Assembly (NCBI RefSeq): GCF_018863395.1
Contig: NZ_JAHKRR010000001.1
Location: 620,001 to 684,000, forward strand
DNA: 64,000 nucleotides
Direction: 5' to 3'
Origin: Sinomicrobium weinanense
GTDB taxonomy: Bacteria > Bacteroidota > Bacteroidia > Flavobacteriales > Flavobacteriaceae
In this document: one piece after another, positions 920 through 62,810 of the stretch
Layout: every line of letters begins with the position of its first letter
Numbering within the stretch: the first letter of the stretch is position 1
Translations under genes and position numbers: made by a program
The notes under the pieces: model-generated
Seen by the model: the letters and a program-made list of their open reading frames with translations, nothing else
Database searches by the model: none
What the model was told of the DNA's origin: nothing

Positions 920-1351
920 TCAATCAAAAGGCAAAAGGTCCGGTTCTAAAAAATGTTTTTTTGCCCATGGAGAATTGTAAATATCTACTCCGTAATGACA
1001 GGACATGAGGTCCTTAAAATTATATTTCAGTCTTGGAAATTCTCTTATGAATGCCCTAAATGTCCCGGATTCCGATCTCAGCATAAAGTGATAAACCGCC
1101 TTAACTGCTGCAACCGTCAGGGTCTTATTGAATTTATGGGCTGCTCCGAGTTTCGTTACATAGTTCAGTAATTGAAAACACAGGTTGTCAATAGCCTTGT
1201 CAATCCCATATTTATCAATATGGATCCAGGCAAGCCTTAGATGGGCTTCGTGGTTGAACAATTCAGGACTAAGGGTTCCGCTTTCAAACTGTTGTTCAAA
1301 TTCGAAGTCACTTAATGTGAAATGATTTTCCATAACTTCTTTATTTATCAT
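920..1351 (-). CDS. Conserved hypothetical protein of 143 aa
   Basis: A soluble, mainly helical protein with no signal peptide or membrane segment. It contains FNHEAHLRLAW (about residues 32-42) and a C-terminal Asp/Pro-rich tail, and I do not recognise a named family. It is the first gene of a two-gene unit with the downstream acetyltransferase, because its stop codon directly precedes that start. A shared small-molecule modification role would be inference only. Confidence 0.65.
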   Translation of the reverse strand: MINKEVMENHFTLSDFEFEQQFESGTLSPELFNHEAHLRLAWIHIDKYGIDKAIDNLCFQLLNYVTKLGAAHKFNKTLTVAAVKAVYHFMLRSESGTFRAFIREFPRLKYNFKDLMSCHYGVDIYNSPWAKKHFLEPDLLPFD

Positions 1352-1363
1352 TGTTTTTTCTCA

Positions 1364-1419
1364 GTCTGCCGTCAACCATCCTTCTCTGATTGCATTCAAT
1401 CTGCAATCAATCCTCATTT
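1364..1419. repeat. Weak 7-bp tandem array (GTCTGCC/ATCTGCA theme)
   Basis: Between the ATPase gene and the 143-aa gene the spacer can be cut into heptamers (GTCTGCC, GTCAACC, ATCTGCA, ATCAATC). Similarity between units is lower than in the other arrays of the window, so the call is tentative. Confidence 0.35.
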
Positions 1420-1424
1420 CCCCG

Positions 1425-1976
1425 TCACCACTGCTTTTCCGTTTCCAGGTATTTCAGCATAAAATCTACCCGGGCCGATACAGGGCCGATGGGGACCTCT
1501 ACAAGTTCGTATCCGTAAGCAATATAAGTAGATTTTATAAAATGATGAATAACTTCGGCCTGTTGAAAGTTTTCATAACGTTCGTTGTCGGAAACATAGA
1601 TGTCTTCCCAGGGGGGTAATACGAATATTACATCATACCTGCAATGTTTACAGATCTCTGTAAAATCTGGCGGATAGGAAGTGCCGGCATAGTCCATGTA
1701 AGCGAGTACATCATGGACTCCCCGGTCTATAAAGACCCTGCCTGCCTTTTCTTTTTCTGCCCCGGCATATTGCTGCCTTCGGCTTTCCAGCAATTTTTTA
1801 CTGAACAATAAAGGATCAGTGAGAAATAACTGGGCTATTCCCTGTTTTTGCGCTTCCAGGGTAACCTGCCTGGATATTTCCGGAAAACAGGTGTCCCCCC
1901 TCAGGGAGAGCTCCTGCAGGACGGATGATTTTCCCGTTCCCGGCCCTCCTGTGATAACAATTTTCTTCGTATTCAC
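1425..1976 (-). CDS. AAA_28-type P-loop ATPase/kinase (NadR/Ttd14-like)
   Basis: From a GTG at 1974-1976 the protein has 183 aa and starts just before the Walker A loop ITGGPGTGKSSV. Other features are a conserved RVFIDRGVHDVLAYMDY segment (Walker B-like, typical of the AAA_28 family) and ERYENFQQA near the C-terminus. The frame stays open upstream to an ATG at 2151-2153. That 59-residue extension is Cys/Phe-rich, reads through a 7-bp repeat array and is unlikely to be translated, so I chose the GTG. Members of this family phosphorylate small molecules or bind nucleotides; the substrate is unknown here. Confidence 0.75.
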   Translation of the reverse strand: MNTKKIVITGGPGTGKSSVLQELSLRGDTCFPEISRQVTLEAQKQGIAQLFLTDPLLFSKKLLESRRQQYAGAEKEKAGRVFIDRGVHDVLAYMDYAGTSYPPDFTEICKHCRYDVIFVLPPWEDIYVSDNERYENFQQAEVIHHFIKSTYIAYGYELVEVPIGPVSARVDFMLKYLETEKQW

Positions 1977-2069
1977 CGCTATTTTTTCAAAAATGCAAAA
2001 TAAGGAAATGCAGGTGGAACTAAAAAATCTAACATGGAATTTATACCAGGATAAAGGCCAAAGAACACA

Positions 2070-2101
2070 TCGATTACCGAATACCGAATACTGACTACCA
2101 A
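2070..2101. repeat. 7-bp tandem array, theme CGAATAC
   Basis: Four units in exact 7-bp phase (CGATTAC, CGAATAC twice, TGACTAC). The array lies in the 5' flank of the AAA_28 ATPase gene and shares its theme word with the array at 2564-2597. Confidence 0.65.
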
Positions 2102-2120
2102 CTTTTGGCAGAAAGTACAT

Positions 2121-2150
2121 TTGCGCTGTTCGGGAGAAGCTGTATCTTTG
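2121..2150 (+). promoter_or_regulatory. Bacteroidota-type promoter for the DUF493 gene
   Basis: TTG at 2121-2123, 19 bp, then TATCTTTG at 2143-2150. This matches the primary sigma factor consensus of Bacteroidota (TTG, 19-21 bp, TAnnTTTG) and would place transcription start about 35 bp before the ATG at 2191. Confidence 0.65.
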
Positions 2151-2190
2151 CACTAAACAAGAAACACTAATTTATTTGGAAGATCAGACG

Positions 2191-2472
2191 ATGGGTTCGG
2201 AAAAGGAATTTTACAAGCGATTGAAAGAAGAATTGAACAATACAACTACGTGGCCATCGAGTTACCTATATAAGTTTATCGTTCCGACCGATACGGATAA
2301 AATCAGCCAGATCGAAGATATTTTTGACAACAGGGGTGCGGTAATAAGCAGTAAAAAATCGTCCAATGGCAAATACACTTCGATTTCCGTTCAACTTATC
2401 ATGCAAAGTGCAGATGATGTTATTGAAAAATACAGAGAAGTAGGGAAGGTAGAAGGAGTGATCTCTCTTTAA
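2191..2472 (+). CDS. DUF493 family protein (YbeD-like)
   Basis: A small 93-aa ACT-like alpha/beta protein. WPSSYLYKFIVP followed by a strand-helix-strand pattern ending VEGVISL is typical of DUF493/YbeD. I chose the ATG at 2191 rather than the in-frame TTG at 2176 because it gives the usual family length. The function of the family is not settled. A good promoter lies upstream at 2121-2150. The 247-bp gap after the gene holds a heptamer array and otherwise nothing recognisable. Confidence 0.85.
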   Translation: MGSEKEFYKRLKEELNNTTTWPSSYLYKFIVPTDTDKISQIEDIFDNRGAVISSKKSSNGKYTSISVQLIMQSADDVIEKYREVGKVEGVISL

Positions 2473-2563
2473 TAGGGATCTGTAAATTTATTTGTAATTA
2501 AAGAAGCAAACGTATCAGGATGTAGAAAGTTGGTATTTGCTGATCCGTATTGATCGGCCACAC

Positions 2564-2597
2564 CAGATACCGAATACCGATCACCGAATACCAAACC
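2564..2597. repeat. 7-bp tandem array, theme CGAATAC/CGATCAC
   Basis: Four full heptamers in phase (CAGATAC, CGAATAC, CGATCAC, CGAATAC) plus a partial unit. It lies about 120 bp upstream of the DUF4290 gene and shares words with the arrays at 2070, 49301 and 60442. Confidence 0.7.
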
Positions 2598-2719
2598 ACT
2601 CATCTCTCCTGCGATAATTGCTGGTTATTCGGAAAAAAATTAGTATTTTGCACTCCGTTACTTTGCTCCGCCCCAACTTGGTTACACTTCAATTATAGCA
2701 AATTTAATTCTTAAATATT

Positions 2720-3364
2720 TTGATCAATAGTTTAGAGTATAATACAGAGCGTAAAAGGCTTATTATTCCCGAATATGGCCGTCATATACAAAAAATGATA
2801 GACTATGCGGTTTCCATAGACGACCGGGAGGAACGCAATAAGGTGGCCAGGGCCATCATTGGAGTTATGGGAAATCTCAATCCCCATTTAAGGGATGTTC
2901 CCGATTTTCAGCACAAGTTGTGGGACCAGCTCTTTATCATATCCGATTTTAAACTGGATGTGGATTCGCCTTATCCGAAACCGGAAAGAGAACTTCTGGA
3001 ACAAAAACCGGAACCGTTGAAATATCCCCAGAATCATCCCAAATACCGTTTTTACGGGAACAATATCAAAAGGATGATCGATGTCTGTAACAGCTGGGAA
3101 GAAAGCGATCTCAAGGAAGGCCTGAAATTTACGATTGCCAACCATATGAAAAAGAGCTTTCTCAACTGGAATAAAGACACTGTGGAAGATGGAGTGATAT
3201 TTGATCACCTTTACGAGTTGAGCGAAGGTAAGATCAACCTGGCCAAATGGGATGAAGACCTTACGGACAGTGATGACCTGATGCGTGGCAAATCCAGGCA
3301 CGGAGGGAAGCCCAGCCAGAAAAACCGGAATACCAAGAATAACCGGAACAAAAAACGCTACTAA
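2720..3364 (+). CDS. DUF4290 domain protein, upstream partner of murA
   Basis: This 214-aa protein starts at a TTG. Its body matches the Bacteroidota-restricted DUF4290 (IPEYGRHIQKMIDYA near the start, then HLRDVPDFQHKLWDQL) and ends in a basic Lys/Asn/Arg tail that may bind nucleic acid or a membrane surface. The gene lies directly before murA with a 94-bp spacer, the usual arrangement in this phylum, so a cell-envelope role is plausible but unproven. Confidence 0.8.
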   Translation: MINSLEYNTERKRLIIPEYGRHIQKMIDYAVSIDDREERNKVARAIIGVMGNLNPHLRDVPDFQHKLWDQLFIISDFKLDVDSPYPKPERELLEQKPEPLKYPQNHPKYRFYGNNIKRMIDVCNSWEESDLKEGLKFTIANHMKKSFLNWNKDTVEDGVIFDHLYELSEGKINLAKWDEDLTDSDDLMRGKSRHGGKPSQKNRNTKNNRNKKRY

Positions 3365-3458
3365 ATCTTATTTTCAAATCCCCGATTTCGGCTTCGCCCT
3401 GCCATGGATATGTTACCGGAGGGAAGGGGCTGGAATTTTTTAAATACGATGGTCTTTA

Positions 3459-4769
3459 ATGGGTACATTTAAAATAGAAGGAGGACAAACACTACGAGGA
3501 GAAATCACCCCTCAGGGAGCAAAAAACGAAGCCTTACAAATATTGTGTGCCGTACTGCTTACGGACGAAACCGTTACCATACACAATATTCCCGATATAT
3601 TAGATGTCAATAAACTTATTGACCTGCTGGAACGGCTGGGTGTCAAAACAGAAAAGCTGGGCAAGGGCGCATATAGCTTCAAAGCTGATGAAATAGACCT
3701 GGACTACCTGCAATCCGTACAATTCAAGGAAGACGGTAAAGGCCTTCGCGGTTCCATTATGATCGTAGGGCCGCTGCTGGCGAGATTTGGCAAAGGATAT
3801 ATTCCCAAACCCGGCGGAGATAAGATAGGGCGCAGGCGCCTGGATACGCATTTCGAAGGCCTCATTAAACTGGGAGCCAGGTTCCGGTATAACCGGGAGG
3901 AATATTTTTATGGCGTGGAAGCCGAAAAGCTGAAAGGCGCATACATGCTGCTGGACGAGGCTTCGGTGACCGGAACGGCAAACATTGTCATGGCTGCCGT
4001 ACTTGCAGAAGGGACTACGACCATCTACAACGCCGCATGCGAACCTTATTTACAGCAGTTGTGCAAAATGCTCAACAGGATGGGAGCCAGGATCAGTGGT
4101 GTAGGGTCTAACCTGCTTACCATTGAAGGTGTTGAAAAACTGGCGGGAACCTCGCATACCATGCTGCCCGATATGATAGAGATAGGCAGCTGGATAGGCC
4201 TTGCTGCCATGACACAAAGCGAACTGACCATTAAAAATGTTGGCTGGGGAAGCCTGGGGCAGATCCCGAATGTGTTCCGTAAACTGGGAATTACCATTGA
4301 AAAAAGAGATGACGATATCTATATTCCGCCTCATACCGACGGTTACGAGATACAGAGTTATATAGACGATTCCATACTAACGGTGTCTGACGCTCCGTGG
4401 CCAGGCTTTACACCGGACCTGCTGAGCATTATACTCGTTGTGGCTACCCAGGCCAAGGGTAGTGTGCTTATACATCAAAAGATGTTTGAAAGCCGCCTGT
4501 TTTTTGTGGATAAGCTGATAGATATGGGAGCCAAGATCATCCTTTGCGATCCACACAGGGCTACGGTGATCGGGCACGACTTCAAATCCAGGCTCAAGGC
4601 CACGACCATGACCTCTCCCGATATCAGGGCAGGAGTTTCGCTATTGATCGCCGCACTTTCCGCCAAGGGAACATCTACCATACACAATATCGAACAGATA
4701 GACCGCGGTTATGAAAATATCGATGAACGTTTGAGGGCTATCGGGGCCAGGATAGAGCGGATTGCATAG
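3459..4769 (+). CDS. murA: UDP-N-acetylglucosamine 1-carboxyvinyltransferase
   Basis: MurA carries out the first committed step of peptidoglycan synthesis, moving enolpyruvate from PEP to UDP-GlcNAc in the cytoplasm. At 436 aa the length is typical of the EPSP-synthase-like two-domain fold, and the N-terminal GGQTLRGEITPQGAKNEAL and inner repeats are clear. In the catalytic loop the usual Cys (Cys115 in E. coli, in PGGCTIG) is replaced by Asp: the sequence reads PGGDKIGRR, with Asp near residue 121. Asp at this position is known from fosfomycin-insensitive MurA enzymes. Confidence 0.95.
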   Translation: MGTFKIEGGQTLRGEITPQGAKNEALQILCAVLLTDETVTIHNIPDILDVNKLIDLLERLGVKTEKLGKGAYSFKADEIDLDYLQSVQFKEDGKGLRGSIMIVGPLLARFGKGYIPKPGGDKIGRRRLDTHFEGLIKLGARFRYNREEYFYGVEAEKLKGAYMLLDEASVTGTANIVMAAVLAEGTTTIYNAACEPYLQQLCKMLNRMGARISGVGSNLLTIEGVEKLAGTSHTMLPDMIEIGSWIGLAAMTQSELTIKNVGWGSLGQIPNVFRKLGITIEKRDDDIYIPPHTDGYEIQSYIDDSILTVSDAPWPGFTPDLLSIILVVATQAKGSVLIHQKMFESRLFFVDKLIDMGAKIILCDPHRATVIGHDFKSRLKATTMTSPDIRAGVSLLIAALSAKGTSTIHNIEQIDRGYENIDERLRAIGARIERIA

Positions 4770-12977: not shown

Positions 12978-13313
12978 ATGATTTTTGATAAACAGGACAA
13001 CAATACTACGATAGTGACCCAGGAAACAGGTTCCGTGCAAAACTTTTGTGGCCGCCTGGCAGAGGCATATGACAAGATCAGGACAGACAATCTAATCGTA
13101 AACCTGTTTTCGCTGGATGCCCTGACCATTAATGAACTGCTGGAATTTCTGGAAATATCCAACAGGCACCGGGCAGCGAAAAGATCTTTTGTTATTGTAA
13201 CCAACAAGGTCAATTACGATGAGGTCCCCGACGAAATGGTAGTGGTCCCTACCTTGCAGGAAGCTCATGATATCATTGAAATGGAAGAAATAGAAAGAGA
13301 TCTTAATTTTTGA
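12978..13313 (+). CDS. Small STAS-like protein encoded before rnz
   Basis: A 111-aa soluble alpha/beta protein with a hydrophobic strand SFVIVTNKVNYDEVP and the acidic C-terminus EAHDIIEMEEIERD. In Bacteroidota such genes often lie just before rnz, and the fold pattern resembles a STAS or anti-sigma-antagonist-like domain; this is a weak resemblance. It starts 3 bp after the pyrB stop, so it is probably read from the same transcript. Confidence 0.6.
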   Translation: MIFDKQDNNTTIVTQETGSVQNFCGRLAEAYDKIRTDNLIVNLFSLDALTINELLEFLEISNRHRAAKRSFVIVTNKVNYDEVPDEMVVVPTLQEAHDIIEMEEIERDLNF

Positions 13314-13442
13314 TTAGCGATTAACGATTTTGGATTTAGGGTTGACAATTTATCAGGGTGTTGGATGACAGATGTATATTAATAACAAATCCAAAATTAC
13401 AATTTATTAATCTAAAACCGCAATTCGTAAATCCAAAATCCG
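13312..13442 (+). repeat. Two 7-bp tandem arrays filling the spacer before rnz
   Basis: Block one (13312-13353) has themes GATTAAC and GATTTAG in six units. Block two (13387-13442) has eight units, including AAATCCA twice, AAATTAC and AAATCCG, and ends exactly at the rnz ATG (13443). Between them is a 33-bp non-repeat segment. Confidence 0.75.
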
Positions 13443-27610: not shown

Positions 27611-27922
27611 TTATCCTACGGTTCCTTTTTCCATAGTTTCTTTGTCAACCGCCACTATACCTACGGATCCTTTTTCCATAGTTTCTTTGTCAACTGCCAC
27701 TATACCTACGGATCCTTTTTCCATAGTTTCTTTGTCAACCGCCACTATACCTACAGATCCTTTTTCCATGGTTTCTTTGTCAACTGCTAATGAATTATTC
27801 ATATTTTCTTGAGAGACATCGAACTTGATGTTATTTTCCTGGTAATGATTATGCAATGAAAGAAAAGTAACGGTTAAAAAGAATGCGGAAAGAATTGAGA
27901 AGAATAATTTTACTGATTTCAT
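27611..27922 (-). CDS. Small exported protein of four tandem 15-residue repeats
   Basis: The 103-aa protein starts with a signal peptide or anchor (KLFFSILSAFFLTVTFLSLH), has a short linker, then four near-identical repeats AVDKETMEKGSVGIV (residues about 46-103, the last one ending TVG). The repeats are 45 bp long at DNA level, starting near 27624, 27669, 27714 and 27759, and nearly identical, so expansion is recent. I know no function. A -7 box TAGGTTTG and a terminator hairpin frame it as its own transcription unit. Confidence 0.65.
   Translation of the reverse strand: MKSVKLFFSILSAFFLTVTFLSLHNHYQENNIKFDVSQENMNNSLAVDKETMEKGSVGIVAVDKETMEKGSVGIVAVDKETMEKGSVGIVAVDKETMEKGTVG
27616..27792. repeat. 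45-bp tandem repeat, about four copies, inside a coding region
   Basis: Spacing of the CCTTTTTCCATRGTTTC word is exactly 45 bp (27624, 27669, 27714, 27759). Copies differ at only a few bases, mostly silent, for example the GAT/GTT and CCG/CTG changes. Copy number is likely variable between strains. Confidence 0.85.
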
Positions 27923-33943: not shown

Positions 33944-34025
33944 GTCAGAAGTCCGAGGTCCGGAGTCTGAAGATATAGATTCACTTTACTTCTGATTTCT
34001 GACTTCTGACCTCGGACTTCCGACT
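33944..34025. repeat. Two inverted 7-bp arrays between the peptidase gene and menB
   Basis: The left array (33944-33971) has units GTCAGAA, GTCCGAG, GTCCGGA and GTCTGAA. The right array (33991-34025) has units TCTGATT, TCTGACT, TCTGACC, TCGGACT and TCCGACT. The right units are near reverse complements of the left ones (GTCCGAGGTC against GACCTCGGAC), so each divergent gene has an array reading in the same sense, and a hairpin is possible. Confidence 0.75.
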
Positions 34026-34087
34026 TTTTCCGTGGTATTGGGTTAAAAAGACTAAAAAGAATTATTTTTACGCAAAATAACAAAATT

Positions 34088-34930
34088 ATGAGCAAAGCAG
34101 ATTGGAAAGTCGTTAAAGAATACGAGGATATCACCTATAAAAAATGTAATGGTGTAGCCCGGGTGGCATTTAACCGTCCCAACGTGCGCAATGCTTTCCG
34201 TCCAAAAACGGTCGGAGAGCTTTTCGAGGCCCTGCTCGACGCCCGTGAAGACACATCTATTGGAGTAGTCCTGCTCTCTGCTGAAGGGCCATCCACCAAA
34301 GACGGGGTGTATTCCTTTTGCAGCGGGGGAGATCAGAATGCCCGCGGGCACCAGGGATATGTAGACGATTCAGGCATGCCCCGGCTCAATATACTCGAAG
34401 TACAGCGCCTTATCCGTTTTATGCCCAAGGTGGTGATTGCCGTGGTCCCCGGATGGGCCGTAGGCGGAGGGCACAGCCTTCACGTGGTGTGCGACCTTAC
34501 CCTGGCCAGTAAAGAACATGCCATTTTTAAACAGACCGATGCCGATGTTACCAGCTTCGACGGGGGGTATGGATCCGCTTACCTCGCCAAGATGGTAGGG
34601 CAGAAGCGCGCCCGGGAGATTTTCTTTCTCGGCAGGAATTATTCGGCCCAGGATGCCTTTGAAATGGGAATGGTCAATGCCGTGGTGCCCCACGAAGAAC
34701 TCGAAGATACGGCCTATGAATGGGCCCGGGAGATCCTGGCCAAGTCGCCCACTTCCATAAAAATGCTGAAATTTGCCTTTAATGCCGCAGACGACGGTAT
34801 GGTAGGCCAGCAGGTCTTTGCCGGAGAAGCTACCCGCCTCGCTTATATGACAGACGAAGCCAAAGAAGGGAGAAACGCTTTTCTCGAAAAACGAAAACCG
34901 GATTTCAGCAACATCAAGTGGATCCCTTAA
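34088..34930 (+). CDS. menB: 1,4-dihydroxy-2-naphthoyl-CoA synthase
   Basis: The 280-aa crotonase-fold enzyme closes the naphthoquinone ring in menaquinone synthesis. It has the FNRPNVRNAFRPKTV segment, an oxyanion loop FCSGGDQNARG, VPGWAVGGGHSLHVVCDLT and the C-terminal FLEKRKPDFSNIKWIP tail typical of MenB. It opens the men cluster (menB, menA, menC, menE). Confidence 0.96.
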   Translation: MSKADWKVVKEYEDITYKKCNGVARVAFNRPNVRNAFRPKTVGELFEALLDAREDTSIGVVLLSAEGPSTKDGVYSFCSGGDQNARGHQGYVDDSGMPRLNILEVQRLIRFMPKVVIAVVPGWAVGGGHSLHVVCDLTLASKEHAIFKQTDADVTSFDGGYGSAYLAKMVGQKRAREIFFLGRNYSAQDAFEMGMVNAVVPHEELEDTAYEWAREILAKSPTSIKMLKFAFNAADDGMVGQQVFAGEATRLAYMTDEAKEGRNAFLEKRKPDFSNIKWIP

Positions 34931-34981
34931 GCGGATCTGTAATTTCCGCTCCCGGAACAGGTATTCCGGTTGCCGAGGGAA

Positions 34982-35020
34982 ATATCTGAAATCTGGTATC
35001 TAACATCTAAAATCTGCATA
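34982..35020 (+). repeat. 7-bp tandem array ending at the menA start, theme AAATCTG
   Basis: Five units in phase (ATATCTG, AAATCTG, GTATCTA, ACATCTA, AAATCTG) plus CATA lead directly to the TTG at 35021. Confidence 0.7.
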
Positions 35021-35923
35021 TTGAGTAAAACAAAGGCATTTATATCCGCTGCACGACTGCGTACACTTCCCCTTTCCTTATCGGGGATCATTGCAGGAAC
35101 AGGGATCGCCGCTTCGCGTGGTTTTTTCGACTGGAAGATTTTTGTCCTTGCGCTCTTCACCACGGTAGGCTTCCAGGTACTTTCAAATTTTGCCAACGAT
35201 TACGGAGACGGTGTTAAGGGAACGGACAATGACGACCGCGTGGGCCCGCAGCGTGCATTGCAGAGCGGGACCATAACCGCTGCGGAAATGAAAAGGGCCA
35301 TGGCAGTGACCATTGCCATAACCATGCTGGTAGCTTTGTTGCTTATTTATGTTGCCTTCGGAAAGGAGAATTTTGCCTATTCCCTGCTTTTTTTTATCCT
35401 GGGTGTAGCTTCTATTGTGGCGGCCATAAAGTATACTGTCGGAAAATCCGCATATGGCTATCACGGCCTGGGCGATGTGTTTGTTTTTCTGTTTTTCGGG
35501 CTGCTCAGTGTGGCAGGCAGCTATTTCCTGTATGTGAAAAATATCGACTGGACCGTATTCCTTCCTGCCACGTCCATCGGGCTATTGAGTGTGGGAGTAC
35601 TCAACCTGAACAATATGAGAGATGAGCGAAGTGATGCAAAATCCGGAAAGAATACCCTCGTTGTGAAAATCGGAGGGAAAAAAGCAAAACAATACCATAT
35701 TACAGTGCTGATCGTGGCATTACTCCTGGTTTTACTTTTTGCTCTGCTTCAAAGTTTCTATATTTATCAGTATTTATTTCTTTTGGCATTTGTTCCCGTG
35801 TTAAAACATATAAAGACCGTGCGGGAGAATAAAATACCGGAAGAACTCGATCCCGAGTTAAAAAAACTGGCCATAAGCACGTTTTTATTGTCGGTTTTGC
35901 TTGCGGTGGGGGCAATATTGTGA
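35021..35923 (+). CDS. menA: 1,4-dihydroxy-2-naphthoate polyprenyltransferase
   Basis: A 300-aa integral membrane UbiA-family enzyme with about eight spans. It attaches the prenyl chain to DHNA. The Asp-rich prenyl diphosphate site is seen in FANDYGDGVKGTDNDDR. I chose the TTG at 35021, because the family alignment starts there (SKTKAFISAARLRTLPLSLS) and a heptamer array ends exactly before it. The frame is open to 34970 but that part is repeat DNA. Confidence 0.92.
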   Translation: MSKTKAFISAARLRTLPLSLSGIIAGTGIAASRGFFDWKIFVLALFTTVGFQVLSNFANDYGDGVKGTDNDDRVGPQRALQSGTITAAEMKRAMAVTIAITMLVALLLIYVAFGKENFAYSLLFFILGVASIVAAIKYTVGKSAYGYHGLGDVFVFLFFGLLSVAGSYFLYVKNIDWTVFLPATSIGLLSVGVLNLNNMRDERSDAKSGKNTLVVKIGGKKAKQYHITVLIVALLLVLLFALLQSFYIYQYLFLLAFVPVLKHIKTVRENKIPEELDPELKKLAISTFLLSVLLAVGAIL

Positions 35924-36037: not shown

Positions 36038-36715
36038 ATGAAAATCACATTTTACGGACACGCGAGTTTGGGCATAGAAGTGGACGATACCCACATTCTG
36101 GTAGACCCCTTTATTTCAGGTAATGAAAAGGCAGCGCATATAGACATCAACCAGATCAAAGCAGATTATATTCTGATAACCCATGCCCATCAGGATCACA
36201 CACTGGATGTGGAGACCATAGCAAGACATACCGGGGCAATGGTTATTTCCAATTTTGAGATCGCCAATCACTACGGGGATAAAGGGATAGATTTTCATCC
36301 GATGAATCATGGGGGAAGCTGGGATTTTGAATTCGGAAAGGTAAAATATGTCAATGCCGTTCACACGTCTTCTTTTGCAGACGGTAGCTATGGCGGACAA
36401 CCCGGAGGTTTTGTCATAGAAGGAGAGCGAAAGAACATTTATATTGCGGGAGATACTGCCCTTACGATGGATATGAAGCTCATTCCGATGCAGACCAAAC
36501 TGGACCTCGCTATCCTGCCCATAGGCGACAATTTTACCATGGGAGTTGATGATGCCATTATAGCCTCCGATTTTATACAGTGCGATAAGATACTGGGATA
36601 TCATTACGATACCTTCGGTTATATTGAAATAGATCACGAAGAAGCCAAGCGGAAATTTTTTGATAAGAACAAAGACCTGATGTTGCTGGCCATAGGAGAA
36701 AGTATTGAGCTTTGA
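36038..36715 (+). CDS. UPF0173-family metallo-beta-lactamase-fold hydrolase
   Basis: A 225-aa protein with the zinc motif ITHAHQDHTLD (HxHxDH) and an early FYGHASLGIEV segment typical of UPF0173. A later HTSSFADG and GDTAL give other ligands. The substrate is unknown. It sits within the men cluster, between menA and the four-helix-bundle gene, and may share the transcript. Confidence 0.82.
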   Translation: MKITFYGHASLGIEVDDTHILVDPFISGNEKAAHIDINQIKADYILITHAHQDHTLDVETIARHTGAMVISNFEIANHYGDKGIDFHPMNHGGSWDFEFGKVKYVNAVHTSSFADGSYGGQPGGFVIEGERKNIYIAGDTALTMDMKLIPMQTKLDLAILPIGDNFTMGVDDAIIASDFIQCDKILGYHYDTFGYIEIDHEEAKRKFFDKNKDLMLLAIGESIEL

Positions 36716-36720
36716 TGAAA

Positions 36721-36760
36721 GAGACAAGATGACAAGGAGACGGGGAGACTTGGAGAAGAG
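36721..36760. repeat. 8-bp tandem array, theme GAGACNNG, left of the four-helix gene
   Basis: Five 8-bp units in phase: GAGACAAG, ATGACAAG, GAGACGGG, GAGACTTG, GAGAAGAG. The word AGACGGGGAGA (36738-36748) recurs in inverted form at 37261-37271 on the far side of the gene. Confidence 0.75.
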
Positions 36761-36787
36761 GTTAATAGAATTTAAATATAGAGCGGA

Positions 36788-37165
36788 ATGGGAGAAAAAA
36801 TCAGGACGCATAAAGATTTAAAAGTGTATCAGCTTTCTTTTGAAGCAGGCATGGAGATTTTTAAGATTTCCAGGTCATTCCCTAAAGAAGAAACATATTC
36901 CTTAACAGATCAGATAAGAAGGTCTTTCGGGTCCGTATCCGGAAATCTGGCAGAAGCCTGGAGAAAAAGAAGATACCCCAAAGCATTTACGGCAAAGTTG
37001 TCGGATGCTGAAGGAGAAGCTGCCGAGACCCAGGTATGGCTGGATTATGCCCTGGCATGTGATTATATCGATGATGAGACTCATGTTGCTCTACATAAGA
37101 AATACGATCATATCTTGGGAATGATAGTTAAAATGATAATAAATCCGGAAAAGTGGAATTTGTGA
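36788..37165 (+). CDS. Four-helix-bundle protein (S23 / 23S rRNA intervening-sequence type)
   Basis: The 125-aa protein has the family core LTDQIRRSFGSVSGNLAEAW, followed by long amphipathic helices (FTAKLSDAEGEAAETQVWLD). Proteins of this family are encoded in 23S rRNA intervening sequences of some bacteria and as stand-alone genes in Bacteroidota; their biochemical role is unknown. Here the gene lies between two 8-bp repeat arrays in opposite orientation inside the men cluster. Confidence 0.82.
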   Translation: MGEKIRTHKDLKVYQLSFEAGMEIFKISRSFPKEETYSLTDQIRRSFGSVSGNLAEAWRKRRYPKAFTAKLSDAEGEAAETQVWLDYALACDYIDDETHVALHKKYDHILGMIVKMIINPEKWNL

Positions 37166-37223
37166 TGGTCAATGGAAAAAATAGAAAAGCAGAACAAAAC
37201 AATTCTCCTGTTTCTGGAGCTTC

Positions 37224-37271
37224 CACATCACCTCTTTCTCCCAATCACCCCATCTCTCAATCTCCCCGTCT
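37224..37271. repeat. 8-bp tandem array, theme CCCCGTCT, right of the four-helix gene
   Basis: Six units of 8 bp (CACATCAC, CTCTTTCT, CCCAATCA, CCCCATCT, CTCAATCT, CCCCGTCT) end 6 bp before the menC ATG. Read on the minus strand they give AGACGGGG-like units, matching the left array. Confidence 0.75.
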
Positions 37272-37277
37272 GAAAAA

Positions 37278-38321
37278 ATGAAGGCATCATACCAGAAGTA
37301 CACGCTTCAATTCAAACGCCCCAGCGGAACCTCTCGGGGCATTCTCACAGAAAAAGAAACCTGGTTTATACTATTGGAAGATACAGGCAGGACAGGTATA
37401 GGAGAGTGTGGTATCCTGAGAGGATTAAGTGTAGACGACAGGGGTGGTTATGAAGAAAAACTAAAGTGGGCCTGCAATAATATTCATCTGGGGAAAGAAG
37501 CATTATACGATGCATTAATGGAATTCCCGTCCATTCAATTCGGAATAGAACAGGCATTCTCTTCGCTCAAATCCCGATCCTCTTTTATATTATTTCCTTC
37601 AAGATTTACAGAAGGAAGTAAAAATATTTCAATAAACGGCCTGGTCTGGATGGGAGACAAGGCCTTTATGCAGCGTCAAATAAGAGAAAAACTCGAACAG
37701 GGCTTTCGCTGCATTAAGATGAAGATAGGCGCCATAGACTTTGGTGCCGAACTGGAATTACTACGATCTATACGAGAAGAATTTTCTCCCGATGACATAG
37801 AAATACGTGTAGATGCCAACGGAGCCTTTACACCGGGTAACGCCCTGGAAAAATTAAAAAAGTTGTCAGAACTGTCGCTACATTCCATAGAGCAACCCAT
37901 AAAACAGGGCCAATGGGAAGAAATGGCAGTACTTTGTGAAAATTCCCCGCTGCCTATTGCACTGGATGAAGAACTGATCGGTGTTTTTGACTTTGCGACG
38001 AAGAAAGAACTCGTCAACACCATAAAACCACAATATATTATCCTGAAACCGAGCCTTGTAGGAGGGTTCCGGGGAAGTAAAGAATGGATACAGTTGGCTG
38101 AAAACTGCAATACGGACTGGTGGATAACCAGTGCACTGGAAAGCAATGTTGGACTGAATGCCATAGCGCAGTGGACGTATACCCTGAATAATACAATGCC
38201 ACAAGGCCTGGGCACTGGAAGCCTCTACACCAATAATCTGGATAGCCCATTGAAGGTAAAGCATGGAGAACTCACCTACGATCCCTCCGAAAATTGGAAT
38301 ATAAGTGTGTTAAAAAAATAA
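37278..38321 (+). CDS. menC: o-succinylbenzoate synthase (enolase superfamily)
   Basis: The 347-aa enzyme dehydrates SHCHC to o-succinylbenzoate. Enolase-superfamily residues are in CIKMKIGAIDF (Lys pair), VDANGAF (first metal Asp), SIEQPI (Glu) and ALDEEL (third metal ligand). Its place between menA and menE supports MenC over other muconate-lactonising subgroups. Confidence 0.92.
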   Translation: MKASYQKYTLQFKRPSGTSRGILTEKETWFILLEDTGRTGIGECGILRGLSVDDRGGYEEKLKWACNNIHLGKEALYDALMEFPSIQFGIEQAFSSLKSRSSFILFPSRFTEGSKNISINGLVWMGDKAFMQRQIREKLEQGFRCIKMKIGAIDFGAELELLRSIREEFSPDDIEIRVDANGAFTPGNALEKLKKLSELSLHSIEQPIKQGQWEEMAVLCENSPLPIALDEELIGVFDFATKKELVNTIKPQYIILKPSLVGGFRGSKEWIQLAENCNTDWWITSALESNVGLNAIAQWTYTLNNTMPQGLGTGSLYTNNLDSPLKVKHGELTYDPSENWNISVLKK

Positions 38322-49262: not shown

Positions 49263-49300
49263 GTCTGACAATTGATAAGTTGTATTGTTTTCTGTGAAGA

Positions 49301-49342
49301 CCGGTGACCGATGACTGATCACCGATCACTGAATACTGATAG
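49301..49342. repeat. 7-bp tandem array before the YdeP gene, theme CCGATCA
   Basis: Six units in phase (CCGGTGA, CCGATGA, CTGATCA, CCGATCA, CTGAATA, CTGATAG). The units CCGATCA and CTGATCA are identical to units at 60442-60497, 11 kb away. Confidence 0.75.
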
Positions 49343-60408: not shown

Positions 60409-60441
60409 GTAGATTAGCAAAATAAACGGAATACAAACAAA

Positions 60442-60533
60442 CCGAAGACCGATTACTGATCACCGATCACCGATCACCGACAACCAATTACTGATTACCA
60501 CCCCTCGTCACCGGTCAACGGTCCCCCGTCCAA
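60442..60533 (+). repeat. Long 7-bp tandem array before the porin gene, theme CCGATCA
   Basis: Thirteen heptamers: eight in phase from 60442 (CCGAAGA, CCGATTA, CTGATCA, CCGATCA twice, CCGACAA, CCAATTA, CTGATTA), then CCACCCC and, after a 1-bp slip, CGTCACC, GGTCAAC, GGTCCCC and CGTCCAA. It ends about 12 bp before the porin ATG and shares units with 49301-49342. Confidence 0.8.
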
Positions 60534-62766: not shown

Positions 62767-62782
62767 TACAAGAGCAACACCA

Positions 62783-62810
62783 GTCACCTGTCATCGGTCA
62801 TCCGTCAAAA
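62783..62810 (+). repeat. 7-bp tandem array before the histidine kinase gene, theme GTCATCG
   Basis: Four units in phase (GTCACCT, GTCATCG, GTCATCC, GTCAAAA) end 9 bp before the ATG at 62820. Confidence 0.7.

Follow-up and report, generated by a model that had tools for sequence, protein, structure and literature searches.

Inverted Short-Repeat Arms Flank Most Scored S23/IVP Genes: A Probable Intervening-Sequence-Type Insertion Element in the men Operon of Sinomicrobium weinanense

Introduction

Why should a gene of the S23/IVP family, which is familiar from the intervening sequences (IVS) of 23S rRNA genes, lie in a men operon between two arrays of short repeats that are inverted with respect to each other? 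The question is raised by a locus in the window (the whole stretch of 64,000 nucleotides analyzed here, from Sinomicrobium weinanense, contig NZ_JAHKRR010000001.1, positions 620,001 to 684,000), to which all coordinates below refer unless stated otherwise. The rRNA intervening sequence has been known for over 30 years, and the S23/IVP family is described as functionally uncharacterized (PMC11270868). We consider it probable (about 70%) that the locus holds an IVS-type insertion element in an operon, i.e., an S23 gene between inverted arrays of 7-8-bp units that would form pairing arms, with the S23 protein as their putative binder.

The putative S23 element of the menC locus

The element spans 551 bp, lies between a hydrolase gene and menC and contains S23 as its only gene. 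The upstream host gene (36038-36715, plus strand) encodes a metal-dependent hydrolase (NF001911, 231 bits; labeled UPF0173 in an earlier note made from the sequence only), and 5 bp lie between the end of its stop codon and the 5' arm. This arm (36721-36760, plus strand; period-8 segment at 36723-36756) is G-rich and C-poor and consists of five 8-bp units (GAGACAAG ATGACAAG GAGACGGG GAGACTTG GAGAAGAG). The 3' arm (37232-37271, plus strand) is C-rich and G-poor and likewise has five units of 8 bp, which are of the reverse-complement type and run, from 37271 to 37232 on the minus strand, AGACGGGG AGATTGAG AGATGGGG TGATTGGG AGAAAGAG; 6 bp separate its end from the ATG of menC (37278-38321, plus strand; TIGR01927, 128.4 bits, just under the cut-off of 130.55; MR_MLE_C, 109 bits). 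Profile searches placed menB at 34088-34930 and menA at 34970-35923. A long antisense ORF (36116-36811) overlaps the region of the 5' arm.

The gene between the arms (36788-37165, plus strand) encodes a four-helix-bundle protein of 125 amino acids that belongs to the S23/IVP family by both profiles (PF05635, 102.8 bits with a cut-off of 33.8; TIGR02436, 94.5 bits with a cut-off of 24). Its AlphaFold model (pLDDT 95) has four helices, and the best fold matches in the PDB were 2gsc and 2rld, followed by the Avd protein 4dwl (E 0.024).

The inverted 8-bp arrays claimed by the earlier note are present with five units on each side, and the pairing that it proposed between 36738-36748 (plus strand) and 37261-37271 is an exact 11-nt reverse complement within a 25-nt inverted repeat of 80% complementarity. 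Alignment of the 5' intergenic flank with the reverse complement of the 3' flank scored 15.0 (shuffle mean 9.7), a score reached by 1.3% of 5,000 dinucleotide shuffles (p = 0.013). Both the MFE and the centroid structure predicted for the 591-nt RNA have the two arms paired, and the fold of the whole element is not unusual (z -1.42) and uninformative. Taken alone, the pair is modestly above chance and only suggestive, so the strength of the case rests on other S23 loci.

Inverted arms at other S23 genes

In the same genome, six matches to PF05635 were found, and by eye all six carry inverted arrays with a unit that differs from locus to locus. Five of these loci could be scored: the inverted orientation gave z 6.4-8.6 in all five and the direct orientation z <2.5 in four (6.7 in L001). 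S23 was found in 41 of the 60 genomes searched (own genome included), with up to 16 matches each, many of them decayed. The related-genome set comprised 95 loci with 100 distinct S23 ORFs, of which 79 were scored and 21 dropped because a flank was under 25 nt. The menC-locus element is among the latter, probably because the antisense ORF was called as a gene. Intergenic flanks were scored against dinucleotide shuffles, a procedure that took over from fixed-window measures.

Inverted arms flank most S23 genes scored. In the related genomes, z>2 was reached by 68/79 S23 genes and z>4 by 50/79, against 21/79 and 13/79 in the direct orientation and 9/51 and 4/51 for control genes (51 scored of 107 taken from the same stretches). 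One S23 gene at the same hydrolase junction as ours (G005) had an inverted z of only 1.65. A second set, mostly from Bacteroidota, consisted of the best 80 of at least 582 S23 stretches and is therefore biased towards the query (79 scored; L197, whose stop codon lies outside its stretch, was left out). The first scoring of these best 80 of at least 582 gave inverted z>2 in 68/79 and z>4 in 58/79 (direct orientation 19 and 13), and fresh shuffles gave z>2 in 66/79 compared with 15/102 control genes; 13 of the 79 loci fell below this threshold. When S23 flanks were swapped between loci, z>2 was still found in 52/237 pairs, so that shared unit composition makes part of the signal; at z>6 there were 42/79 own pairs, 11/237 swapped pairs and 4/102 control genes. 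The check suggested by the earlier note, namely whether other S23 genes have such arrays, thus came out in favor of its proposal. The fixed 250-bp windows point in the right direction with a diluted signal (flank alignment above the control 99th percentile in 12/99, own pair better than all 20 mismatched pairs in 57/99; by 6-mer counts, own pair at the top of all mismatched pairs in 24/99 versus 4/104 controls).

Clear arms were also seen outside Bacteroidota, in contigs labeled as Acidobacteriaceae (L175, L204), Planctomycetota and Gemmataceae (L178, L196), Omnitrophica (L179), Nomurabacteria (L182), Clostridia (L171, L192), Betaproteobacteria (L164) and Desulfosarcina (L193); these contigs are MAGs, and the labels may therefore be wrong in part. 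An alphaproteobacterial contig (L165) had a left array only and no inverted pair. Plasmid records carry firmer labels than MAG contigs, and ten of the 37 with an S23 match were examined (nine cyanobacterial and one from Azospirillum): z>4 was found in 9/10 loci, L283 being the failure (L280 and L281 are near-duplicates, and L279 also has long direct arrays).

Anatomy of the arms

Among 178 loci, the best period was 7 in 85/113 scorable 5' arms and 97/119 3' arms, and period 7 is conspicuous in either arm (mean scores of 11.3 and 12.4, versus about 4). Period 8 was best in 16/113 5' arms and 14/119 3' arms, so the menC-locus element belongs to a minor class. The earlier note had called its unit length of 8 unique in the window: the element is indeed the sole period-8 segment among the 11 period-7/8 segments at the threshold used, but units of 8 bp are a regular minority elsewhere. 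The unit sequence differs between S23 loci and the base content is polarized, with means of 28% G and 7% C on the 5' side and of 24% C and 9% G on the 3' side. G outnumbers C in 88 of 101 5' arms, with the reverse in 9, and C outnumbers G in 93 of 111 3' arms, with the reverse in 12. AG is the commonest fixed dinucleotide of the 5' arms (41/75; CT 6). On either side, five heptamers is the most frequent arm length (32 and 33 of 123); the distribution has a long tail, and the alignment may blur the peak. In 119 elements, the median length from arm to arm was 487 bp, and the duplex of the two arms had a median of -30 kcal/mol versus -14 for shuffled sequences.

Repeat unit and protein lineage

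The units of 150 loci were compared between S23 pairs without a homologous neighbor in their flanks (up to 3 kb per side). Sharing of the unit increased over the bins of protein identity (1.3%, 2.0%, 5.5%, 14.5% and 58.6%), from 1.3% of 5,217 pairs with <35% identity to 58.6% of 29 pairs with >=65%. In the 97 pairs with >=60% identity the mean cosine was 0.255, against 0.061 after permutation (maximum 0.130 in 2,000). Related S23 proteins thus appear to take a common unit into unrelated operons, e.g., into what we take, from the protein sequences of the neighbors, to be fadJ|thiolase (L129, L132) and paaA|paaB (L128), fad (L141, L149), sdhA|sdhB (L139) and a site beside sdhB (L144), or aldehyde dehydrogenase|aminotransferase (L161), carA|carB (L020) and pyrB|carA (L187). 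There are counterexamples (L152/L161 with 70% identity and a cosine of 0.10; L146/L173 with 71% and 0.18). In 45 of 164 same-site pairs the arms match within each locus and the units differ between loci, which indicates that the two arms change together or that whole elements are replaced. L141 and L147, with 83% identical S23 proteins at the same fad junction, have a unit in common.

Occupied and empty sites

The hydrolase junction was compared in 30 of the 42 genomes with a hydrolase match. An S23 gene with arms follows the hydrolase gene in three of the 30 loci (our genome, G004 and G005). In 13 genomes the hydrolase gene and menC (identified by eye) lie within 18 bp of each other or overlap, without arrays, and in another 13 the gene after the hydrolase is further off or is not menC. 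The earlier note had suggested a comparison with relatives that lack the gene: in two genomes of the same genus, both among the 13 with menC close by, only 1 bp (G001) and 15 bp (G002) separate the UPF0173 stop from the menC start, and no arrays are present. A third (G003) has a 110-bp gap without a gene, the final bases of which resemble G004 and which looks like a scar.

The fad operon was compared in 30 of 49 genomes with a match, its sites being labeled by motifs in the neighboring genes. At junction J1, an S23 ORF was present in seven of the 30 genomes (truncated in G008), and in the others we counted, by eye, two decayed S23 genes, five hairpins without a gene, 11 clean gaps measuring 3-24 bp and five other cases; at J2, S23 was present in six of the 30. 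In a tree of 94 rows, built from short proteins and with one very long branch, the 29 J1 proteins do not form one clade (AU p 4e-168), and hence the elements entered fad J1 more than once or were exchanged; the tree implied 15 changes of the J1 site (shuffle mean 24.8, minimum 19 in 100 shuffles). In G005, fad J1 (L211) holds a decayed gene that by eye looks like a Y1-type (RAYT) transposase, where other genera have S23 elements, and in G024 (L221) both fad junctions are occupied by a different inverted repeat, of the CCTCCCC / GGAGAGGG type, unlike heptamer arms.

The fit between stop and start codons was measured in the 123 elements that have clear arms and 700 bp or more of sequence per side, looking for co-directional genes only. 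A co-directional stop lies upstream in 121/123 (median -1 bp from the 5' arm) and a co-directional start downstream in 121/123 (median 12 bp past the 3' arm), and the junction that remains without the element is <=40 bp in 90/119. In 800 kb of our own genome, gaps of <=40 bp make up 139/637 junctions and 1.8% of intergenic bases; such a fit is not expected of random intergenic insertion. Where both neighbors were called, they were co-directional with the gene on both sides in 75/86 S23 genes versus 44/61 controls. Either selection or targeting could explain this placement.

The proposal of the earlier note that the gene and its flanks are one transferable unit agrees with these comparisons, since arrays accompany most S23 genes scored and are absent together with the gene at same-genus sites; in such sequence comparisons, the S23 gene and its arms behave as one insertion unit. 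A different reading would be a host regulatory module, in which S23 binds its own arrays and tunes the surrounding operon, and which was fixed by selection and not by mobility. This reading would account for the placement between co-directional genes, for the persistence at some junctions (e.g., L141/L147 at fad) and for strong purifying selection on the S23 protein, to which dN/dS values of 0.06-0.18 point (computable in five of eight pairs), although several pairs are near synonymous saturation. We regard it as unlikely, because the presence of the element is patchy and genomes of the same genus have clean sites without it, because the host operons are a jumble of unrelated functions, cas and rRNA loci included, and because decayed S23 copies occur.

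Mobility

If the locus holds an insertion element, it does not multiply in the manner of an insertion sequence, as the highest identity between S23 proteins within one genome was 64.1% among the fetched loci. Mobilization in trans by a reverse transcriptase or Y1 (HUH) transposase resident in the genome, with S23 as an Avd-like helper or as a passenger, would fit the fold shared with Avd, the decayed Y1-like gene seen by eye at fad J1 of G005 and the higher frequency of Y1 transposases in S23-bearing genomes (22/41 versus 2/19 of the other genomes, genome size being uncontrolled). It is nevertheless quite improbable: RVT_1 matches are absent in 29 of the 41 S23-bearing genomes, among them each of the six genomes searched from this genus and G012, the genome richest in S23, Y1_Tnp is absent in 19/41, and neither was found in 14/41. 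A phage collection contained no match to the S23 protein of locus L002.

Relation to rRNA intervening sequences and other known systems

The IVS-type insertion element that we favor has its closest counterpart in the 23S rRNA itself. Plasmid AZO_p2 of Azospirillum lipoferum 4B (L288) contains an unannotated S23 ORF (positions 2435-2920 of that stretch) inside a match to LSU_rRNA_bacteria (1283-4481), flanked by inverted heptamers (z 14.5); the sequence before this ORF we take to be the helix 45 region of 23S rRNA. In the rRNA IVS of Coxiella, three GACAGAT heptamers, the number of which varies between strains, precede the S23p ORF, and RNase III cleaves at the first repeat (PMC4990558). Both cases are in line with the IVS-like layout claimed by the earlier note. 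Complementary ends with an S23 ORF between them, upstream tandem repeats, sporadic presence and intact sites in relatives are all found at the menC locus, and the first four are features of the 23S rRNA IVS of Coxiella and Leptospira, the repeats there being heptamers (PMC4990558). The sizes are also close (median 487 bp here, 428-444 nt in Coxiella; PMC4990558), and the difference is one of place, the menC-locus element lying in an intercistronic gap of a protein operon and not inside an rRNA gene. On the basis of one rRNA locus here and one published, rRNA IVS and operon elements seem to have the gene, the arms and the length of the unit in common. PMC4990558 treats both the function and the origin of the rRNA insert as unsettled.

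The four-helix-bundle fold is shared with Avd of the diversity-generating retroelements (4dwl; TM 0.78, normalized by query length; E 0.024), but the S23 protein reaches only 22 bits on the Avd profile NF033474 (cut-off 80), and our genome has 0 matches to RVT_1. REP/RAYT elements and REPINs have a gene between inverted repeats and gene-less repeat hairpins elsewhere in the genome. The S23 gene between its inverted repeats and the gene-less hairpins elsewhere in our genome are similar, but no Y1 transposase lies within the menC-locus element (all three Y1 matches found in the genome are at other places) and the arms are tandem arrays with locus-specific units. Intergenic arrays of 7-bp tandem units have been described in Xanthomonas and Nostoc, in Xanthomonas often as inverted pairs (PMC4692102), and in Beggiatoaceae (PMC4679880); the term 's23' has 0 occurrences in the accessible text of these two articles, which makes no link to S23.

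S23 genes in cas loci have been presented as a function found there (PMC3936711). Three cyanobacterial S23 genes in cas operons (L279, L284 and L287; cas6|cas4 twice and cas10|cmr3) have inverted arms and look like operon insertions, which may account for those reported in PMC3936711. A search covering titles and the beginnings of abstracts, with most of the subscription literature outside its reach, returned no published description of S23 genes outside rRNA with inverted heptamer arrays.

Gene-less arrays

In 800 kb of our own genome, 56 intergenic tandem-repeat segments of period 4-14 passed a strict threshold, most of them with period 7, 14 or 8 (20, 18 and 9 segments), periods that were absent from shuffles. 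The same 800 kb contain 64 arrays outside long ORFs versus one S23 element (the menC-locus array is missing from the 64 because of its antisense ORF). Gene-less arrays are thus far commoner than S23 elements, and the gene is not always needed by arrays. Among 14 gene-less inverted pairs, 12 have a G-rich 5' arm, two are mixed and none is reversed. A 93-bp gap after the hydrolase gene in G032 (L109) holds, by eye, an inverted AATTCCAA / TTGGAATT hairpin with the C-rich arm first, so the polarity rule has an exception among gene-less pairs.

For five of five scorable S23 loci of our genome (L005 yielded no unit) a matching gene-less array was found, versus 65/144 foreign units, and the difference in mean count is weak (P = 0.036). 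The gene-less hairpins at fad J1 of G010, G018 and G029 resemble the J2 S23 arms of their own genomes (cosine 0.42, 0.51 and 0.48); they are equally like the S23 arms of some other genera, and movement in trans is therefore not proven. When the 800 kb were screened by tblastn (E 1e-4) for decayed copies of S23, only the menC-locus gene was returned, and none between the longer gene-less arm pairs. A transcription terminator and a CRISPR-like array were considered as other readings and set aside. An origin of the arrays as ordinary products of repeat slippage in these genomes, unrelated to S23, is very improbable, for although gene-less heptamer-type arrays and inverted pairs are common and the Xanthomonas and Nostoc heptamers are described without mention of S23 in the accessible text of PMC4692102, left and right arms match within a locus far more than between loci, the unit tracks the protein, and the empty menC sites of the same genus have no arrays.

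Possible mechanism and significance

In the transcript, the G-rich 5' arm would pair with the C-rich 3' arm, so that the IVS-type element folds out as a stem-loop that would keep the host stop and start codons close, as the rRNA ends are kept around an IVS. RNase III, which excises rRNA intervening sequences without religation, would be the likely cutter of the folded element. The S23 protein of Xanthomonas is a homopentamer (PMC4990558), and S23 may bind its own array, perhaps with one unit per subunit, as suggested by the peak of arm length at five heptamers; it might also take part in moving or maintaining the element. A bolder version, which we offer as a tentative possibility, is that S23 pentamers are sequence-specific RNA-wrapping rings that each read five units of their own array, and that the elements are bacteria-wide, RNA-level mobile elements that insert at stop-start junctions of transcripts (mRNA, cas operons, rRNA loops), which fold themselves by their paired arms and have no transposase or reverse transcriptase of their own, with the rRNA IVS as their best-known outpost and gene-less heptamer hairpins as non-autonomous relics.

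S23/IVP is widespread, and should most of its genes be carried along with inverted heptamer arms, the protein would gain a concrete candidate ligand. The rRNA intervening sequences would gain a reservoir in ordinary operons, the S23 genes reported in CRISPR loci would be simply explained, and some of the puzzling intergenic heptamer repeats of bacteria may be relics of one element family. The rRNA insert would then appear as a single instance within a far broader class of insertion elements.

Other repeats in the window

Just 5' of menB, a gene-less inverted heptamer hairpin lies at 33944-34026 (units like GTCAGAA / TTCTGAC). Gene-less inverted pairs of heptamer type also occur at 2530-2595 and 13312-13440, the second under the threshold for pairs. 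Heptamer arrays with no clear inverted partner nearby were seen at 2071-2098, 34984-35015 (in the menB-menA gap, where a matching 5' arm was not seen), 49299-49339 (partly self-complementary), 60441-60498 and 62778-62807. A 45-bp tandem repeat (27615-27784; 3.8 copies, 96%) lies inside a short ORF of the minus strand.
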